From: Pirellulales bacterium
GTDB lineage: Bacteria; Planctomycetota; Planctomycetia; Pirellulales; UBA1268
Reading direction: 5' to 3'
DNA length: 64,000 nt
Assembly: GCA_018401745.1 (NCBI GenBank)
Contig: JAGYJY010000007.1
Coordinates: forward strand, 186,001 to 250,000
Shown here: piece after piece, positions 3,962 to 57,329 of the stretch
Layout of the letters: each line of letters starts with the position of its first letter
Position numbering within the stretch: the first letter of the stretch is position 1
Notes under the pieces: model-generated
The model's input: the letters and a program-made list of their open reading frames with translations, nothing else
Database searches by the model: none
What the model was told of the DNA's origin: nothing
Program-made: the position numbers and the translations under genes

Positions 3962-4338
3962 CGCGATGGTCGCCTTGGCCGCCTCGGCAGGCGATAGCTG
4001 GTCGTAGGTGATGCCGGGCTGAAAAGGCTCAAGCCCCAGTGCGTAGTCGACGGTCGGCGCGGCCGATGCCAGCGATGCCGTGAGGGCGATAAGCGGCAGA
4101 GAGCCCTACAAGATGCCGGCTCACCCTCCACAGAAATACTCGACGACGCGTAACTCGCACGATGGATCCCTCCCTGGAATCGTTGATGGCACTCTGGTTG
4201 ACGGCACTCTGACGGTTGTGCCGGGGCGGGCGTTGCCTCCTCCGCGGCGCAAGCGAATGTGCCGAAACTCTACTCTGGACGCCTCTCAGGCGCCAGCGCC
4301 AAAACCGACTGTCGACACCCGGCGGCCGGCACGCCCGA

Positions 4339-4366
4339 TTGATTTTAGGGAGAGTGCTCCTAGACT
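4339..4366 (+). promoter_or_regulatory. Candidate promoter of the tRNA-Ile/tRNA-Ala unit
   Basis: TTGATT (4339-4344), a 16-bp spacer, then TAGACT (4361-4366), ending 34 bases before tRNA-Ile. This is the best sigma-70-like match upstream of the tRNA pair. It is inferred from consensus only. Confidence 0.4.
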
Positions 4367-4400
4367 GATGATTCGCAGGCGTCCGCCTGCAAGGCCACCC

Positions 4401-4474
4401 GCGCGCGTAGCTCAGCTGGTTAGAGCGCCACCCTGATAAGGTGGAGGTCCCTGGTTCGAATCCAGGCGCGCGCA
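4401..4474 (+). tRNA. tRNA-Ile (GAT)
   Basis: A full cloverleaf: 7-bp acceptor GCGCGCG/CGCGCGC, D arm, anticodon stem CCACC/GGTGG with loop CTGATAA (anticodon GAT), T arm CCTGG/CCAGG with TTCGAAT. The 3' CCA is not encoded. It is the first of two tandem tRNAs, with 30 bases to tRNA-Ala. Confidence 0.97.
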
Positions 4475-4504
4475 TTGTCTGTGATGTTGTTGGTCAGCCC
4501 AGAA

Positions 4505-4577
<73 letters not shown>

Positions 4578-4684
4578 CTTCCTGCCGTTGCGGGCTATTG
4601 CCCTCGTGCAACGGCCCTGTCGGCCACCGTCCGCTCTCTCCCTCCGCTCGATCCCTCCTTGGCCGCCAGCCTGCGGTTTTTTAT

Positions 4685-6538
4685 ATGCCAGTCGCGCCCG
4701 ACGTGCAGACAAACGCCCCGACCAGCCGCCGCAGCGATATCCGCAACGTGGCCATTATCGCCCACGTCGACCACGGCAAGACGACCCTCGTCGACTGCCT
4801 GCTGCGACAGAGCGGACAGTTTCGCGACAGCCAGCTCTCTGGCGAGCGGATCCTCGACTCCAACGACCTGGAGCGGGAACGTGGCATCACCATCCTCGCC
4901 AAAAACATTGCGATGGAATGGAAGGGCGTGAAGATCAACATCATGGACACCCCAGGCCACGCCGACTTCGGCGGCGAGGTGGAGCGGGTGCTGCGGATGG
5001 CCGATGGTGTGCTGCTTCTCGTCGACGCAGCTGAAGGGCCGATGCCGCAAACCCGCTTCGTGCTCGCCAAAGCCTTTGAGGCGGGTCTCAAGCCGGTGGT
5101 CGTGGTCAACAAGATCGACAGTCCTGATGCTCGTCCGGCGGCTGTGCTCGATGAGGTGCTCGAGCTGTTTCTCGAGCTCGGCGCCGACGACGACCTGGCC
5201 GACTTTCCCTTCGTGTATGCGTCGGCCCGCGACGGCTACGCCTCCCACGACGTCGCCGCCCGTGAAGGCACGATGGAGCCGCTGCTGGAGCTGATCCTGG
5301 AGCGGATCCCGGGGCCCGCAGTCGTTGAGTCCGGCCCGCTGCAGATGCTGGTGACCACCCTCGACTGGTCGGACTATGTCGGCCGGATCGCGATCGGCAG
5401 GGTGGAGTCGGGCCGGCTTTCCAAAGCGATGTCGGTGGTGCGGTCGACGGCGGCCGGAAAACTCGAGCCGGCAAAAATCGTCGGCCTACAGCTGTTCGAC
5501 AAGCTCGGCCGTGTCGATGCCGAGGAGGCGACTGCCGGCGACATTGCTGCCATCCACGGCCTCGACAAGGTGGAGATTGGCGACACGATCTGCGATCCGG
5601 CTAACCCGCTGCCCCTGCCGCGAGTGACGGTCGATGAGCCGACGCTTTCCATGGTGTTTGGCGTCAACTCCAGCCCGCTCGCCGGCCGCTCCGGCACCTT
5701 CCTCACCACCCGCCACCTCCGCGACCGGCTCAACAAGGAGCTGGAAAAGAACGTGGCCCTCACGGTGGAGCCGGTGGAGGGCAGCGATCAGTTTCGTGTG
5801 TCGGGCCGTGGCCTGCTGCACCTCTCGGTGTTGATCGAGACAATGCGGCGAGAGGGCTACGAGATCTCCGTCGGCAAGCCACGCGTGATCATCCGTCGCG
5901 AGGAAGGGCAGGTGCTCGAGCCGTTTGAGACACTTGTGGTGGAGGTGCCGCATGAGGCGCTCGGCCCCGTGATGGAGCTTGCCGGCGGCCGTCGCGGGCA
6001 GCTCGTGCACATGGGCAATCGTGGCGACTTTGCCAACGTCGTCTTCTCAATCCCTGCCCGCGGCCTGATCGGCCTGCGAACCCGCGTGCTCAACGCCACC
6101 AAGGGCGAGGCGATCATGCACCACCGCTTTGAGGCCTGGCAGCCCTACGAGGGAGAGATGGCCGGCCGTGCCAATGGGGTGTTGATTTCGATGGTGCCGG
6201 GCAAGGCTGTCGCCTTCGGCCTCGACGGCCTGCAGGAGCGGGCCGACCTCTTCATTGGCCCAGGCGATGAGGTCTACGAAGGGATGGTCGTGGGCGAAAA
6301 CGCCCGCAGCGGCGACATGGTGGTCAACCCCACCAAGGAGAAGAAGCTCACCAACATGCGAGCCAGCGGCAGCGACAAAAACATTCTGTTGAAGCCGCCC
6401 CGCAAGATGTCGCTGGAAGAGGCCCTGGAATACATCGAAGACGACGAGCTCGTGGAGGTCACTCCCGACGCGATCCGACTCCGCAAGATGCTCCTCTCCG
6501 AGCACGAACGCCGCAAGCAGGCCCGGGCCAAGGCGTAA
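4685..6538 (+). CDS. typA: Translational GTPase TypA/BipA
   Basis: A 617-aa protein, the usual TypA length. It binds the ribosome and hydrolyses GTP, and is linked to stress adaptation and 50S assembly. G motifs: AHVDHGKT (residues 26-33), [14 protein letters not shown] and NKID, followed by EF-G-like domains and the TypA-specific C-terminus ([16 protein letters not shown]). The frame opens upstream through the tRNA-Ala gene, so the ATG at 4685, about 105 bases after the tRNA, is the sensible start; the segment [21 protein letters not shown] leads straight into the G domain. It is probably transcribed separately from, or read through from, the tRNA pair. It is convergent with the MBL hydrolase gene 36 bases downstream. 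Confidence 0.97.
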
Positions 6539-6574
6539 GCAACGCTCGGCCAGATGGTTTTGTCTGCTGAGGCT

Positions 6575-7360
6575 TTAAAAGAGATACCTGCGGCCGGGCT
6601 CGACCAGTTCGACGCCGGGCAGGTCGAGGGCGTCGAGCTCACGGCGGATTTCATCGGCATACCTGGCCTTGCGGTGCACAACGATCCAGCGAACAGGCCG
6701 GCTGAGTTTGCACACCTCCTGGGCAAACGTTGCCGGGCAGTGGTGGCCGGTGTGTGCGGCGAGTTCGCGGCGGGCGTTGGGGAAGCTCACCTCAAGAAAC
6801 ACCGCCGCCAGCCGGGGCAGGGCAGCGAGGTGCTGCCAGAAGTTCTCGGTGGGACCAGTGTCAGAGGGAAACGCCACTGCGGTCTGGCCGTCGTCGATGA
6901 CCAGCCCGAGTGTGTCGACGCAGTGGTCGACGGCCAGCGGCGTGATCGTCAGGCCCGCCCGCTGAAGCGGCTCGCCCGCTGCAATCGGGGTGGCGTGGAG
7001 GAAGGCATCCTCGTCGGTCGAGAGGTCGAAGAAGTCGGGCCAGACACGACCGTTGAAGATATCTCGCTTGAGAAACGTCAGCACGTCGCCGGCCGCCAGC
7101 AGTTCCACGCTGCCGGGGCCGGGTTCGTAGACGTTCTCCAGGAGAATCGGCAGCGAGGCGATGTGGTCGATGTGTTCGTGGGTAATCACCACATGCCGCA
7201 CCTGCCGCTGCCGATCGAGATCGGCAAGAAAACCGATTGAGCCGGCGTCGATCACCACCTCGCTGTTGATCAGGTAGCTGACAAGAAACTGGGGGCTTTC
7301 CCCGCCGCTCGCTCCCGCGGCGGTCGCGCCCACGCACGATGGCAGCAACTCAACTCGCAT
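6575..7360 (-). CDS. MBL-fold hydrolase, class-II cyclic-nucleotide phosphodiesterase-like
   Basis: A 261-aa metallo-beta-lactamase-fold enzyme. The zinc-binding signature HEHIDH (residues 61-66) follows the strand VRHVVIT; further ligands are probably in VDHC (about 145) and FPSDTG (about 165). The compact size and the THEHIDHIASLP context resemble class-II 3',5'-cyclic-nucleotide phosphodiesterases, so cAMP hydrolysis is a reasonable guess. Related MBL enzymes (RNase Z, phosphonate hydrolases) cannot be excluded. The window also encodes a cyclic-nucleotide-binding MscS protein just upstream on the same strand (7420) and an adenylate cyclase at 21186, so a cAMP-related role would fit; this is inference from context. 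Confidence 0.75.
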   Translation of the reverse strand: MRVELLPSCVGATAAGASGGESPQFLVSYLINSEVVIDAGSIGFLADLDRQRQVRHVVITHEHIDHIASLPILLENVYEPGPGSVELLAAGDVLTFLKRDIFNGRVWPDFFDLSTDEDAFLHATPIAAGEPLQRAGLTITPLAVDHCVDTLGLVIDDGQTAVAFPSDTGPTENFWQHLAALPRLAAVFLEVSFPNARRELAAHTGHHCPATFAQEVCKLSRPVRWIVVHRKARYADEIRRELDALDLPGVELVEPGRRYLF

Positions 7361-33614: not shown

Positions 33615-33898
33615 GCGTGCACACCCGCTCCTGGGAAAACATCACGTCGGAGCGTAGAAAAGCCCACCCCCTCGCAGCAACCCCGACTGCACGCGTCCCG
33701 CCGAGTGACGCGGAGCCTCGCACGTTGTGTCAGTGAGAGGGAGCCGCGAGAGTGGGAGGGAGACCGCGCGCGGGTGGTCCGGCTCGGCAGGCGGCAAAAG
33801 TCGCGTCGCTGGGCCAGGATAGGCCAAACGCTCCGCGAGCGTTCGCCGACCCGCCGAGCCTCCACTTTTTGTCAATGAAGGGAGGGGCCGAAGAGGAA

Positions 33899-33971
33899 CG
33901 GGACGGGTCCTCGGGCCGCGAAGCGGCCTCGGCGAAGCCGAGGTGCCTGCGGCACCCGAAGACCCGTCCCG
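33899..33971. repeat. Four-way-junction palindromic repeat, copy 1
   Basis: A 17-bp outer stem (33899-33915 with 33955-33971, one mismatch) encloses three directly adjoining hairpins: CCGC-GAA-GCGG (33916-33926), CCTCGGC-GAA-GCCGAGG (33927-33943) and TGCC-TGC-GGCA (33944-33954). Every base is either in a stem or in one of three triloops. A second copy is at 56940-57012. Confidence 0.9.
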
Positions 33972-34020
33972 CTTGCACACCCCCCGCCGCCACCCCGCTC
34001 AGCCCTCGCCCGCCTCCCCC

Positions 34021-34078
34021 CGGCCGCAGATCGCCGCGAAGCGGCGAACAGGCCGTCCCCAAACCGTAAGCGAGGGGT
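34021..34078 (+). repeat. GGCCG-hairpin module, copy 1
   Basis: GGCCG boxes flank CGCCGC-GAA-GCGGCG (34032-34046), then come GTCCCCAAACCGTAAGCGAG and a GGGGTGAGCCCGGG tail. It follows the four-way-junction repeat at the same distance as at 57.1 kb. Confidence 0.85.
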
Positions 34079-34280
34079 GAGCCCGGGGCTGACCCTCCGG
34101 CCTCTATGCGCGAGCGACGCCCGGAGGGCCAAAGCGAAGCGGATATCCGAGCGAGCGAGGGCCTGGAGGGCCCGCAGTGAGCGTCCGGAGGGGCAGCCCC
34201 GGGCGCTCGCTTCACGCCTGCGAAGCCATCCTGGCCTTCGCAGGCTAGAGCAGCCGGTCCAAAAGCCAAGGTTTTTGACC

Positions 34281-53255: not shown

Positions 53256-55202
53256 TCAGGCAAACTGCCCGTGGACAAACCAGGCTCCGCGATCGTGCGT
53301 GGCGGCCTGCTCGCGAGTGCTCGTGCGGGCGACCCGCGGCTGCGATCCTGCCACGGATCGCCTGGGCCCACGGAGATGCTGCCTTCCGCTCTCACCGAGA
53401 TGCCGAAAGAGCCACCACCGATCACCCGATTCGGTTTCCACGACGTAGTAGTCGCGGCGGACCGAGCATCCACGCCACCAGGCTGTCTCAATCCGCTCAG
53501 GCCCCCAGGCCTCGGTGACACGATGCCGCACACCGCTGATGCAGAACCACAGCGGCGGCCCATCCGGCACCACCGACACCGTTTCCACCCGGATCGGCCG
53601 TGGCGCCATCCAGAGCGGCCGCAGCCCAGCAGCACGCGAAGCTGCCGCTGCAGCTGCAGATGACGACGCCCCGCCATGCCCAGGCTCCGGAGGAGCCGCC
53701 ACCCAGGCATGCTCCGGCTGCGCGTCAATCACCGGCCGTGGCTCAAAGACCGCCATGCGGCCAAGCCGGCCTGCCAAACGGTCGAGCAGCCCTCCGAGCT
53801 GCACCGCCTGCTCACCTGCCCTGAGCGTGGCTGAAGAGCCAATGCCATCAAAGAGCACCCGCTGCCTGCAGGCCACGGCGCCGGCCGACACCACTTCCAC
53901 TGCGATCGATTCGACCTCCCGCGGCAGTCGCATGCGGGCCATCCGCAGCTGCACCAGATCGACCACATGCCGCGACGACACACTCGGCCGAAACAGCCCG
54001 ATATCGATGACAACCGGCGACGACTTTGTGGAAATCGACGAGGTCTCCAGCAGCCGCACCTGCAGCACCGTCACGCCAAAGCCTCGAGCATGCAGCATGG
54101 TGAGGCACTGCTCGACGAGCGGCTCGAGCACACACCGCATCGCCTCAAATGTGGACGCTGGAGCAGAGAGATGGCACTCCGCATGCGGAAAGGCCTCATC
54201 GGCAACAGCCTGCAGCGGCTCACCACGGCTTCCTTCAAACTCCGCCAGCCGGCGAGCAACCAGAGGCCCGAGTCGGCTCGCCACGCTCGTGCGCGGCAGC
54301 TCGAGGAGCTGACCAATCGCCTGCACCCCAAGCTCACCCAGAAGCGAGACGGTTTCCTCCGGAATCCGCAGCGCAGCAACAGGCAGCGCGGCGAGCCACG
54401 CCGACTGACTGCCTGGCGGAATCACTGCCCACCGCTTGCCCTGTCGCCTCGTTGCCGCCTGCACACGCTCCTGCCGACGCGCACCGCCCTCCGCCAAAGC
54501 CCCTTCCACAGGCCGAGCTGCTGCCGATGACACTGCACCAGACGGCACTGCACCAGACGGCACTGCACCAGACGGCACTGCACCAGACGGCACTGCACCA
54601 GACGACACTGCACCAGACGACACTGCACCAGACGACACTGCACCAGACGACACTGCGTGCGGAGACGCTGCTACTGGACGAACCGCAGCCGGATGATGGG
54701 CGGCCGCCCAGGCTGCTGAGGGCGTGTCGGCCACGGCAGCGCGGGCATAGAGGCCCCGCGAGGCGAGCGTCCAGACGGCGGTGCGAACCACCATCTGCTC
54801 ACCGCCGAGTAGATCGGCCGTGCCGGCAAGGTCGACATGAATGCACTCGGGCTGTTCGGCATCTTCCAGCGACGTCGTTGGCGAGAACCTCCGGCACCAG
54901 CGAGCAATGCCCTCAAGCACCAGCCGGTCGGCCTGCGGGTCGTCTTGATCGACCTCAGCCATGCGACAGACCTGCGAACCACACGAAAGCGCCAGCGCAG
55001 CGAGGGTTTCGGCGAGGGTCTGGCCGCAGGGAATCCGCGGCGGCCTGATCCGGGCCGCCGCCCAGGCCCAGCCGACCACCCGCTGCACACCGCGTAGCTC
55101 CGTGCGGCACACAAGCAACGGAGCCTGCCGTCGCTCGGGCCGCTCCACGAGCCGCCGCTGCACCGGCCACCGCGGCAGCCAGATCGTCATGACGCGCGAC
55201 AT
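53256..55202 (-). CDS. imuB: ImuB, inactive Y-family polymerase homologue, with pentapeptide repeat
   Basis: A 648-aa UmuC/DinP-like protein that in known cassettes tethers DnaE2 to the beta clamp. The start MTIWLPRWPVQRR replaces the active Y-family MDAFFA block, as expected for ImuB, which lacks catalytic acids. A Y-family-like core follows (HVDLAGTADLLGG, LPVAALRIPEETVSLLGELG, LLELPRTSVASRLG). Residues of about 185-225 are (S/P)SGAV units encoded by eight 15-bp repeats (54529-54648), inserted in what should be the palm/fingers region. The C-terminal part ends with a typical ImuB tail (GPERIETAWWRG, RDYYVVETESGDRWWLFR). Its start overlaps the imuA end by 16 bases. Confidence 0.9.
   Translation of the reverse strand: MSRVMTIWLPRWPVQRRLVERPERRQAPLLVCRTELRGVQRVVGWAWAAARIRPPRIPCGQTLAETLAALALSCGSQVCRMAEVDQDDPQADRLVLEGIARWCRRFSPTTSLEDAEQPECIHVDLAGTADLLGGEQMVVRTAVWTLASRGLYARAAVADTPSAAWAAAHHPAAVRPVAASPHAVSSGAVSSGAVSSGAVSSGAVPSGAVPSGAVPSGAVPSGAVSSAAARPVEGALAEGGARRQERVQAATRRQGKRWAVIPPGSQSAWLAALPVAALRIPEETVSLLGELGVQAIGQLLELPRTSVASRLGPLVARRLAEFEGSRGEPLQAVADEAFPHAECHLSAPASTFEAMRCVLEPLVEQCLTMLHARGFGVTVLQVRLLETSSISTKSSPVVIDIGLFRPSVSSRHVVDLVQLRMARMRLPREVESIAVEVVSAGAVACRQRVLFDGIGSSATLRAGEQAVQLGGLLDRLAGRLGRMAVFEPRPVIDAQPEHAWVAAPPEPGHGGASSSAAAAAASRAAGLRPLWMAPRPIRVETVSVVPDGPPLWFCISGVRHRVTEAWGPERIETAWWRGCSVRRDYYVVETESGDRWWLFRHLGESGRQHLRGPRRSVAGSQPRVARTSTREQAATHDRGAWFVHGQFA
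54529..54656. repeat. 15-bp in-frame tandem repeat (VNTR) in imuB
   Basis: Eight complete units of G(A/G)CACTGCACCAGAC from 54529 to 54648 and a partial ninth. Two unit types (GA and GG) occur in blocks: one GA, four GG, three GA. It encodes (S/P)SGAV pentapeptides on the minus strand and length changes keep the frame. Confidence 0.97.
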
Positions 55203-56821
55203 GCCACACCATCCTTCCTGAAAACCTTCCTGATCTCTTCCTCGCCTTCAACCGTTTCGGAGCGATCCTGCTCGTGCCGCTCGCCGACTCGAAACTGCAA
55301 CACGTCGTTGCACTGCTCCCGCCCAACACTCGGCTGGACAACACTCGGCTGGACAACACTCGGCTGGACAACACTCGGCTGGACAACACTCGGCTGGACA
55401 ACACTCGGCTGGACAACACTCGGCAACGCTGCAGACGGCACCGTCGCGAGCGGCCGCATCGGCTGCAGGCTCGCGACCTGCCGCCGAAGGCTTGCGGCCT
55501 GAAGCGGCTCAACACCCCGCTCAAGATTGAGCATCACTTCGCAGCTGCGGCCCTCGCCGTAGAGCAGGCTGGAGAGCCGTTCGACCCGCCACTGCCGCAC
55601 CACCGCTTCAGAACGCGGCGCAACAGACGGCCCATACAGCCGCCCAGCACGCCCCTCTGCCAACCTCGCATCCCTTGCTGCCCTAGCTGCCCCTGCGGCC
55701 CCTTCCGGCGGCATGGCAGGCAAGGCCTGCGTGCTCTCGCGAGATCGGCTTGGGCTCTGTGCTTGTGCAGGGCTGCGTGGCCTGTGCAACGGCATCACCA
55801 CGAGCCGCGCCTCAGCCCACGACGGATCTCGACGGCACTGCCAGGGCCGAACGAACATGCCCACAGCACCACTCGCGCGAGCGGCCAGCTGCCATCGCCG
55901 CATGACCTTTGAGCACACAATCGATGCCGACGGGGAGGCGACAACAGCCGCCACGCCTCCGCACCGCAAGGCCTGATCAATGGTCCAGATTTCGTCGTCG
56001 TCTCGCGAGGGCCGCGCCACGATCAGCTGGCAGCGAACGCCCGCAGCCCCTTCCCCAAGCCACCGCATCACCGCTGGCGGATAAAACCATCCCGAGCGAT
56101 CGACGACGAGAATGGCCCCGACATGAGGCTTCCCGGAGGCTCTGATGTTGTGAACGCGATGCTTCCGAGGCGACCCCTCCTGAAAGCGGCCTCGCAGCAA
56201 CTGGCCGCCGCCAGCATCCTCCTCGCCGGCAGAAGCTCCCGCCACCTGCACGGCAATCGCCATTGCCAGCGTGAAGGCTCCGCTGCCAAAGCTCTCCCCA
56301 GCAGAGGCATTGCATTGCACGCCTCCACGAGCCATGCCACCGGCCCTTGGCACGGCTGTTTTGACTGCAGCAGCTTTTGTTGCCGTGGCTTTCATCGCCA
56401 CTTGAGGAAACGGCTCTCCAGGCCCTGCTGTTTGCGGGCCTGCTTGCCGAAACAACGCCGACGACCGCTCAAGCCTCGCCTCCATCCCTGCTGGCAGCCA
56501 CTCCACAAGACTGCCCCGACGGATCCCTCCCGCCGGCAGCAGCTGATCAAGCTCCCGAAAGCCACTCGAAACCACTTCACCTGCAGGCTGCCCCAACGAC
56601 ACCGAGGCCGTGCTGAGCATCGCCGCCGATAAGCCGAGCACCGCCGCCGGCAAGCACGGCACCGCCGCCGGCAGGCCGAAGGCATCGACCGGCAGACCCA
56701 GCTGCTCGTCTCTTGCAGCCGCCCATTCACTGGCAACCGACGCTCGCTGTGCACCCACCGATTCCTCCTGCAGGCTTCCCCCGGCAACTCCTGGCAGCGG
56801 CACCACATTTGCAAAAGACAT
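55187..56821 (-). CDS. imuA: ImuA, RecA-like accessory mutagenesis protein, with pentapeptide repeat
   Basis: A 544-aa protein from ATG 56821 (MSFANVVPLPG). The middle resembles the ImuA/SulA-RecA-like fold: FRELDQLLPAGGIRRGSLVEWLP, the strand AILVVDRSGWFYPPAVMRWL, CQLIVARPSRDDDEIWTIDQALRCGGVAAVVA and RRWQLAARASGAVGMFVRP. There are long Ala-rich low-complexity insertions, and a C-terminal tail containing six VVQPS units from 15-bp repeats (55336-55425). ImuA supports ImuB/DnaE2 in SOS mutagenesis. A palindromic SOS box sits 22 bases before the start; its end overlaps imuB by 16 bases. Confidence 0.88.
   Translation of the reverse strand: MSFANVVPLPGVAGGSLQEESVGAQRASVASEWAAARDEQLGLPVDAFGLPAAVPCLPAAVLGLSAAMLSTASVSLGQPAGEVVSSGFRELDQLLPAGGIRRGSLVEWLPAGMEARLERSSALFRQAGPQTAGPGEPFPQVAMKATATKAAAVKTAVPRAGGMARGGVQCNASAGESFGSGAFTLAMAIAVQVAGASAGEEDAGGGQLLRGRFQEGSPRKHRVHNIRASGKPHVGAILVVDRSGWFYPPAVMRWLGEGAAGVRCQLIVARPSRDDDEIWTIDQALRCGGVAAVVASPSASIVCSKVMRRWQLAARASGAVGMFVRPWQCRRDPSWAEARLVVMPLHRPRSPAQAQSPSRSRESTQALPAMPPEGAAGAARAARDARLAEGRAGRLYGPSVAPRSEAVVRQWRVERLSSLLYGEGRSCEVMLNLERGVEPLQAASLRRQVASLQPMRPLATVPSAALPSVVQPSVVQPSVVQPSVVQPSVVQPSVVQPSVGREQCNDVLQFRVGERHEQDRSETVEGEEEIRKVFRKDGVACRAS
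55336..55425. repeat. 15-bp in-frame tandem repeat (VNTR) in imuA
   Basis: GGACAACACTCGGCT repeated from 55336: five exact units plus a sixth differing at its last base, with a partial unit before them (55322-55335). It encodes (VVQPS)n on the minus strand near the C-terminus. Confidence 0.97.
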
Positions 56822-56939: not shown

Positions 56940-57012
56940 CGGGACGGGTCCTCGGGCCGCGAAGCGGCCTCGGCACAGCCGAGGTGCCTGCGGCACCCGA
57001 AGACCCGTCCCG
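56940..57012. repeat. Four-way-junction palindromic repeat, copy 2
   Basis: Same architecture as 33899-33971: 17-bp outer stem (56940-56956 with 56996-57012), hairpins at 56957-56967, 56968-56984 and 56985-56995. The differences found are in the loop of the second hairpin (GAA becomes ACA); all stems are unchanged. Confidence 0.9.
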
Positions 57013-57022
57013 CTTGCCACTC

Positions 57023-57059
57023 CAGCCGAGGTGCCTGCGGCACCCGAAGACCCGTCCCG
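57023..57059. repeat. Partial tandem copy of the four-way-junction repeat
   Basis: Repeats the 3' half of the element (second arm of hairpin 2, hairpin 3, outer arm) directly after the full copy, lacking the 5' half. Confidence 0.85.
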
Positions 57060-57100
57060 CTCCCGCATCACCGAAGCCACCCCGCTCGCCCCGCCCCCCC

Positions 57101-57157
57101 GGCCGCAGATCGCCGCGAAGCGGCGGACAGGCCGCCCTAAACCCGTAAGCGAGGGGT
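57101..57157 (+). repeat. GGCCG-hairpin module, copy 3
   Basis: GGCCG boxes around CGCCGC-GAA-GCGGCG (57111-57125), then a diverged CCCTAAACCCGTAAGCGAG tract and GGGGTGAGCCCGGG, in the same order and spacing relative to the junction repeat as at 34.0 kb. Confidence 0.85.
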
Positions 57158-57250
57158 GAGCCCGGGCCGAATGAGCCGGCCTTGCAGTCGAGCGCAGCCC
57201 GGAGGGCGAAAGCGAGAATGCACGAGTGAGCGAAGCCAGGATGGCGAAGC

Positions 57251-57329
57251 GAACGCTCGGCGAATCGGCTTGGGCTCACCCCGAGCGACCCCGAACGCTC
57301 GGCGAATCGGCTTGGGCTCACCCCGAGCG
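57251..57329. repeat. Tandem repeat, 42-bp period
   Basis: A 37-bp sequence starting GAACGCTCGGCGAATCGG occurs at 57251-57287 and 57293-57329, separated by ACCCC. Each unit has CGCTCGG and CCGAGCG ends that can pair as a hairpin. Confidence 0.9.

Follow-up and report, generated by a model that had tools for sequence, protein, structure and literature searches.

A dispersed intergenic repeat with a predicted four-way-junction fold in two congeneric planctomycete species

Anatomy of the repeat

In the window, that is, the whole stretch of 64,000 nucleotides of a Pirellulales bacterium that was analysed, a 73-nt DNA repeat (labelled B) is found twice, which raises the question of what kind of element this is and by what means it has multiplied. 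Copy 1 lies at 33899..33971 and copy 2 at 56940..57012, both on the + strand; the sequence-only reading had placed both exactly and had rightly given the second loop as their sole difference, GAA in the former and ACA in the latter. Copy 1 carries the family consensus and stands between conserved flanks, RAA-[B]-CTTGC (33896..33976, +). Behind copy 2 a right-half fragment of the element (element positions 38-73, 100%) follows in tandem at 57024..57059 on the + strand.

B is composed of outer arms of 17 nt (33899-33915 and 33955-33971 in copy 1, + strand) which enclose three hairpins of 4, 7 and 4 bp, located on the same strand at 33916-33926 (GAA loop), 33927-33943 (GAA loop) and 33944-33954 (TGC loop, which is GCA on the other strand). 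All three end in triloops and they abut with no spacer, as had been described from the letters. The accompanying statement that every base is paired applies to the - strand, where outer-stem pair 12/62 is a T·G wobble, and fails on the + strand, where the same pair is a C·A mismatch. With DNA parameters a gap-free four-way junction is predicted on both strands; the GG/CC bases at the junction permit 2 bp of branch migration, and the minimum-energy form is the one migrated by 2 bp. Measured against dinucleotide shuffles, the DNA fold has a z-score of about -6 to -7; that of the RNA fold against shuffles is about -7.

The two half-elements form an inverted doublet, with arms identical at 16 of 17 positions, and both a rod and a clover are stable folds of it. 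A symmetric inverted doublet able to form one long hairpin is among the marks by which a REPIN is recognised, and B has it; lone B halves are also present.

Copy number and distribution

The genome of the window (G000) is a draft MAG of 2.88 Mb in 28 contigs, 74% complete. A covariance model of B, built from 31 distinct bodies, detected at least 68 copies in it, every scored candidate having matched, and BLAST gave 15 identical and about 34 more full or near-full copies among the matches listed. Chance origin is excluded, since the 73-mer is a dispersed family. The other carrier is uncultured Planctomycetaceae bacterium ERR2206794_bin.65 (G001), a different species of the same genus known from a draft MAG that is 82% complete, in which about 40 or more copies were found (42 covariance-model matches, a few of which are one place on both strands). 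Several G001 contigs stop within tens of bases of B; short-read assemblies are likely to have been broken at B and its copies to be undercounted.

The search covered 72 genomes of the family and 297 of the order, together with phage, plasmid and viral collections. With the covariance model B was absent from the 70 other family genomes, including G002 and G003 of the same genus, and it was absent from the 295 other order genomes as well as from the phage records, plasmid records and viral contigs. Among the genomes searched B is limited to two species of one genus, and a wide distribution in planctomycetes was not borne out. Copies nevertheless far outnumber two, a relative carries B, and breaks in stems are less frequent than changes in loops, so that the original suggestion of a maintained structure survives on all three points.

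Conservation of the structure

Variation was followed in 95 copies from G000 and G001, comprising 59 distinct bodies. Per-site departures from the consensus are 11-14x more frequent in the 9 loop columns than in the 64 stem columns (11x for the distinct bodies), and over the 59 distinct bodies 1868 of 1888 pairs (98.9%) are standard on the better strand. Double compensatory changes occur at five pairs (5/69, 13/61, 14/60, 18/28 and 34/40), and covarying base pairs of this kind had been proposed as a check. In an alignment of 31 sequences the covariation score is 0.044; shuffled alignments give 0.024 (0/500), and sliding the partners gives no more than 0.028. As the copies are related, the independent compensatory events are few. 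The structure of B is conserved by compensation, and the earlier claim to this effect is upheld both by these changes and by the bias of substitutions towards the loops.

In loops 1 and 3 the sequence is mostly R-N-A, each on one strand, with a free middle base and with A as the third base in 95 of 95 copies. This pattern is the GNA rule known from DNA minihairpins, which GNA triloops render extraordinarily stable (Yoshizawa et al. 1997, cited in PMC7432603; see also PMC8984947). In about 100 natural copies, 59 of them distinct, a junction fold of DNA and not of RNA is apparently conserved down to the loop rule.

Paired stems could also arise by self-correction of the palindrome even in the absence of selection, and E. 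coli is known to undergo template-switch mutation at quasipalindromes (PMC7202029). However, correction of the stems does not predict the R-N-A rule in the loops, and a mismatch or wobble at outer-stem pair 12/62 or 13/61 persists uncorrected in nearly all copies.

Fold as DNA or as RNA

With RNA parameters the rod is preferred (-61.9 kcal/mol, against -57.6 kcal/mol for the cloverleaf), whereas with DNA parameters the cloverleaf is the minimum-energy fold by a narrow margin. The rod requires pairs 22-54 and 23-53, both of which are broken among the variants, the latter in 13 of 31. Pair 18/28, on the other hand, covaries in the cloverleaf and is unpaired in the rod, and over the 31 sequences pairing amounts to 99.2% for the cloverleaf and 97.4% for the rod. 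The RNA rod as the conserved fold of B is contradicted by these variants. The role as folded DNA, and not RNA, that had been proposed is supported both by the GNA loop rule and by the fold modelled with DNA parameters.

We consider it very unlikely that B is an RNA structure such as a terminator, an attenuator or an mRNA stabiliser. Its intergenic position and the high stability of its RNA fold (z about -7) would suit such a role, as would a weak excess in convergent gaps (7/61, against 4/96 in divergent ones, p=0.11). However, the orientation of B to genes is not fixed, no T tract follows the hairpin in the copies read, the variants contradict the fold that RNA prefers, and B is missing from most relatives, among them two congeneric genomes. 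Moreover Rfam gave nothing above threshold at B, the only matches being sub-threshold ones to microRNA precursors.

Genomic context and replication orientation

In the sampled stretches none of 38 copies lies within a called gene, the calls coming from a home-made codon-usage caller and being approximate. An enrichment of B at gene 3' ends, strong in a first count, was not significant once corrected for background.

B is housed in islands of other repeats. Module A, a repeat upstream of B (33749..33863, +, approximate boundaries), is matched at roughly one in three B loci (about 33%), and modules C and D at about 70%. Module C is a hairpin, CGGCCGCAGATCGCCGC-GAA-GCGGCGAACAGGCCG, found on the + strand at 34021..34055 and, at copy 2, at 57100..57134. 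Module D lies on the + strand at 34065..34206 and, at copy 2, at 57144..57287 (both with approximate boundaries), the second being followed by a tandem partial copy at 57292-57329. D is an older, genus-wide repeat which is also present in genomes without B, so B has probably arrived more recently. The best reading is that B invaded older intergenic repeat islands.

The direction of B agrees with the contig GC skew at 51 of 60 loci (Fisher 3e-5), and the prediction made from the skew was correct on contigs C12 and C14, which were sampled as its test. The gene of ribosomal protein L2 is on the G-rich strand of contig C4, and ribosomal-protein operons generally run with replication, which supports taking the G-rich strand as the leading strand. 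Nevertheless the bias appears to belong to D and not to B. At loci with D, B agrees with the skew in 42 of 45 cases, whereas B without D agrees in 8 of 13 (p=0.58, few loci); D itself agrees at 44 of 45 G000 loci, a count that includes two at which B and D point in opposite directions, and at 26 of 27 in G003, which has no B. The repeat D (CGTAAGCGAGGGGTGAGCCCGGG...CCCGGGCTCACCCCGAGCGACC; 34065-34206 and 57144-57287 in the window) is accordingly oriented with replication in G000 and G003. The control for neighbouring D removed the orientation of B as a sign of transposition through lagging-strand ssDNA, as expected of an element of the IS200/IS605 type, and, as the bias is carried by D, orientation was not used as evidence on the movement of B.

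Changes at orthologous loci

B is dispersed, and every sampled copy is intergenic. Orthologous loci differ in whether they carry B and in how many copies they carry, and B is found in tandem as well as in nested arrays. In the genes that flank such loci, identity between G000 and G001 is about 90%. At L041/L120 the G001 copy stands between two modules of about 50 bp in direct repeat, and in G000 a single module is present without B. In G001 one B at L031/L005 corresponds to two tandem copies with an 85-bp unit in G000; at L090/L025 an additional B is found within module D in G001; and at L019/L096 B is confined to G000. Both genomes share B at L037/L051, where the adjoining module has been exchanged precisely at B's CGCAAG end. 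B itself is nearly the same at orthologous loci, with 2 changes in 219 sites over three shared loci (3 x 73 nt). Some of these locus differences could be losses or products of recombination between island repeats.

In 36 of 95 copies the body of B runs in the opposite direction to its flanks. Moreover a nested composite of the form left half–GATACACACGCAAG–B–TTCAATCCG–right half is present at several loci and is itself dispersed; in G000 it was found by BLAST at L057, L142-L150 and L049, with outer flanks that are mostly RAA...CTTGC. One copy, at 601-673 of L142, has symmetric flanks (CGCAAG-[B]-CTTGCG). No clean target-site duplication was found at B.

We favour, with a probability of about two in three, the reading that B is a recent, proliferating, non-autonomous and REPIN-like repeat structured as DNA. 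It has the look of a small DNA parasite in which the folded shape is what counts. Two similar halves, each a 17-nt arm with a small hairpin, are inverted around a central hairpin, and as DNA the whole would form a gap-free, slightly migratable four-way junction. Such folded DNA, whether a single-stranded hairpin or an extruded cruciform, may be the substrate of an enzyme acting in trans or of copying linked to replication, in which case the copies that fold well would be those that multiply and any effects on the host would be incidental. A mobilising enzyme for B was not identified.

The main rival holds that there is no transposition: slippage, quasipalindrome template switching and recombination between islands would have spread B, and mutational self-correction would maintain its stems. 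Several of the features above are in keeping with it, namely the tandem halves and duplicated 85-bp units, the bodies flipped against their flanks, the direct repeats of module A that bound B at L041, and the module swap at L037/L051. Against it, in addition to the uncorrected pairs and the loop rule already mentioned, the presence of B at about 60 loci with differing flanks exceeds what local slippage would give, and we regard this explanation as possible though doubtful.

Search for a mobilising enzyme

Two RAYT-like Y1_Tnp genes, as the sequence-only reading had suggested looking for, do exist in G000, the only ones found, but they carry another REP, GGAAAAAGGTGTCAGGAACCTTTTTC. They lie on contig C17 (L044, C17:12000-23000) at positions 4075-4860 and 6142-6729 of that locus, about 1.8 kb apart, and have inverted GGAAAAAGGTGTCAGGAACCTTTTTC repeats at their flanks. 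The two are 97% identical over the 118 aa that they share, the second being truncated, and between them is a frame which we take to be fasciclin-like.

That these enzymes move B seems quite unlikely. The architecture of B is REPIN-like, G000 does hold the two genes, and a 'clover' fold has been proposed for REPINs as the form recognised by RAYT (PMC3116915). However, the repeat flanking a RAYT should be the same as the one it moves, and here a different REP does so; GGAAAAAGGTGTCAGGAACCTTTTTC was not seen in the sampled contigs that bear B, and C17 has no B among the matches listed. Neither Pfam Y1_Tnp nor the C17 protein has a match in G001 (82% complete), for all its copies of B, or in G002 or G003. 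The foot of B also lacks the expected tag, GTAG being found within 8 nt of it in 0 of 95 copies and CGTC in 2 of 95, and the CGTC that B does contain falls inside the paired arm. The proposed movement by the RAYT or Y1 enzyme of this genome is therefore not supported.

Still less credible, indeed barely so, is a recombination site, for instance one resembling an integron attC or a Xer site. The element is folded and multi-branched and its body can be inverted, as such a site might be. Against this, the AAC...GTT boxes are not together at the feet of B: the flanks read CGCAAG...TTY or GAA...CTTGC and do not fit the attC boxes RYYYAAC / GTTRRRY. The neighbours of B are repeats and not gene cassettes, and no cassette array was seen around it in a non-exhaustive look.

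Comparison with known repeat systems

REPINs (PMC3116915) are symmetric doublets with compensatory changes and tandem clusters, and B resembles them in anatomy: both are short symmetric inverted doublets (the GI REPIN has 71 bp between 16-mers, B has 73 nt), intergenic, with lone-half remnants and with alternative hairpin and 'clover' folds. Unlike REPINs, B has neither a GTAG tag nor an adjacent RAYT, its three hairpins form a gap-free junction with R-N-A triloops, half–B–half nesting is repeated, and the body may be inverted against the flanks. B is not filed here as a REPIN, because the tag and the link to a RAYT were looked for and not found.

GTAG- or CGTC-tagged REPs and BIMEs (PMC3733652, PMC8266576) are likewise intergenic palindromes which form mosaics with other repeats and in which structure is important, and the CGTC families, too, have no dedicated transposase. 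B differs in its length of 73 nt, its multiple branches and the lack of a tag. The repetitive and double hairpin elements of mitochondria, so far as the available portion of PMC2800124 describes them, are also dispersed intergenic hairpins with tandem and incomplete copies, conserved stems and variable loops; they are mitochondrial, and no four-way cloverleaf with GNA loops appears in that portion.

It is tempting to suggest, though we hold it unlikely, that B is selfish DNA of a new class, carrying no information other than its four-way-junction fold. Such an element would spread without a dedicated REP-type tag or RAYT, an enzyme or host process reading the cruciform or cloverleaf, and by nesting into its own centre it would give rise to higher-order elements that spread in turn. 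Whatever the mover, the locus-by-locus differences between G000 and G001, together with two congeners free of B, make this a tractable case of palindromic-repeat copying without a linked RAYT.

Other repeats in the window

Tandem repeats of 15 bp, with CACCAGACGGCACTG and CAACACTCGGCTGGA units, are found within long open frames at 54479-54686 and 55309-55443 of the window, and they possibly encode repeat proteins.
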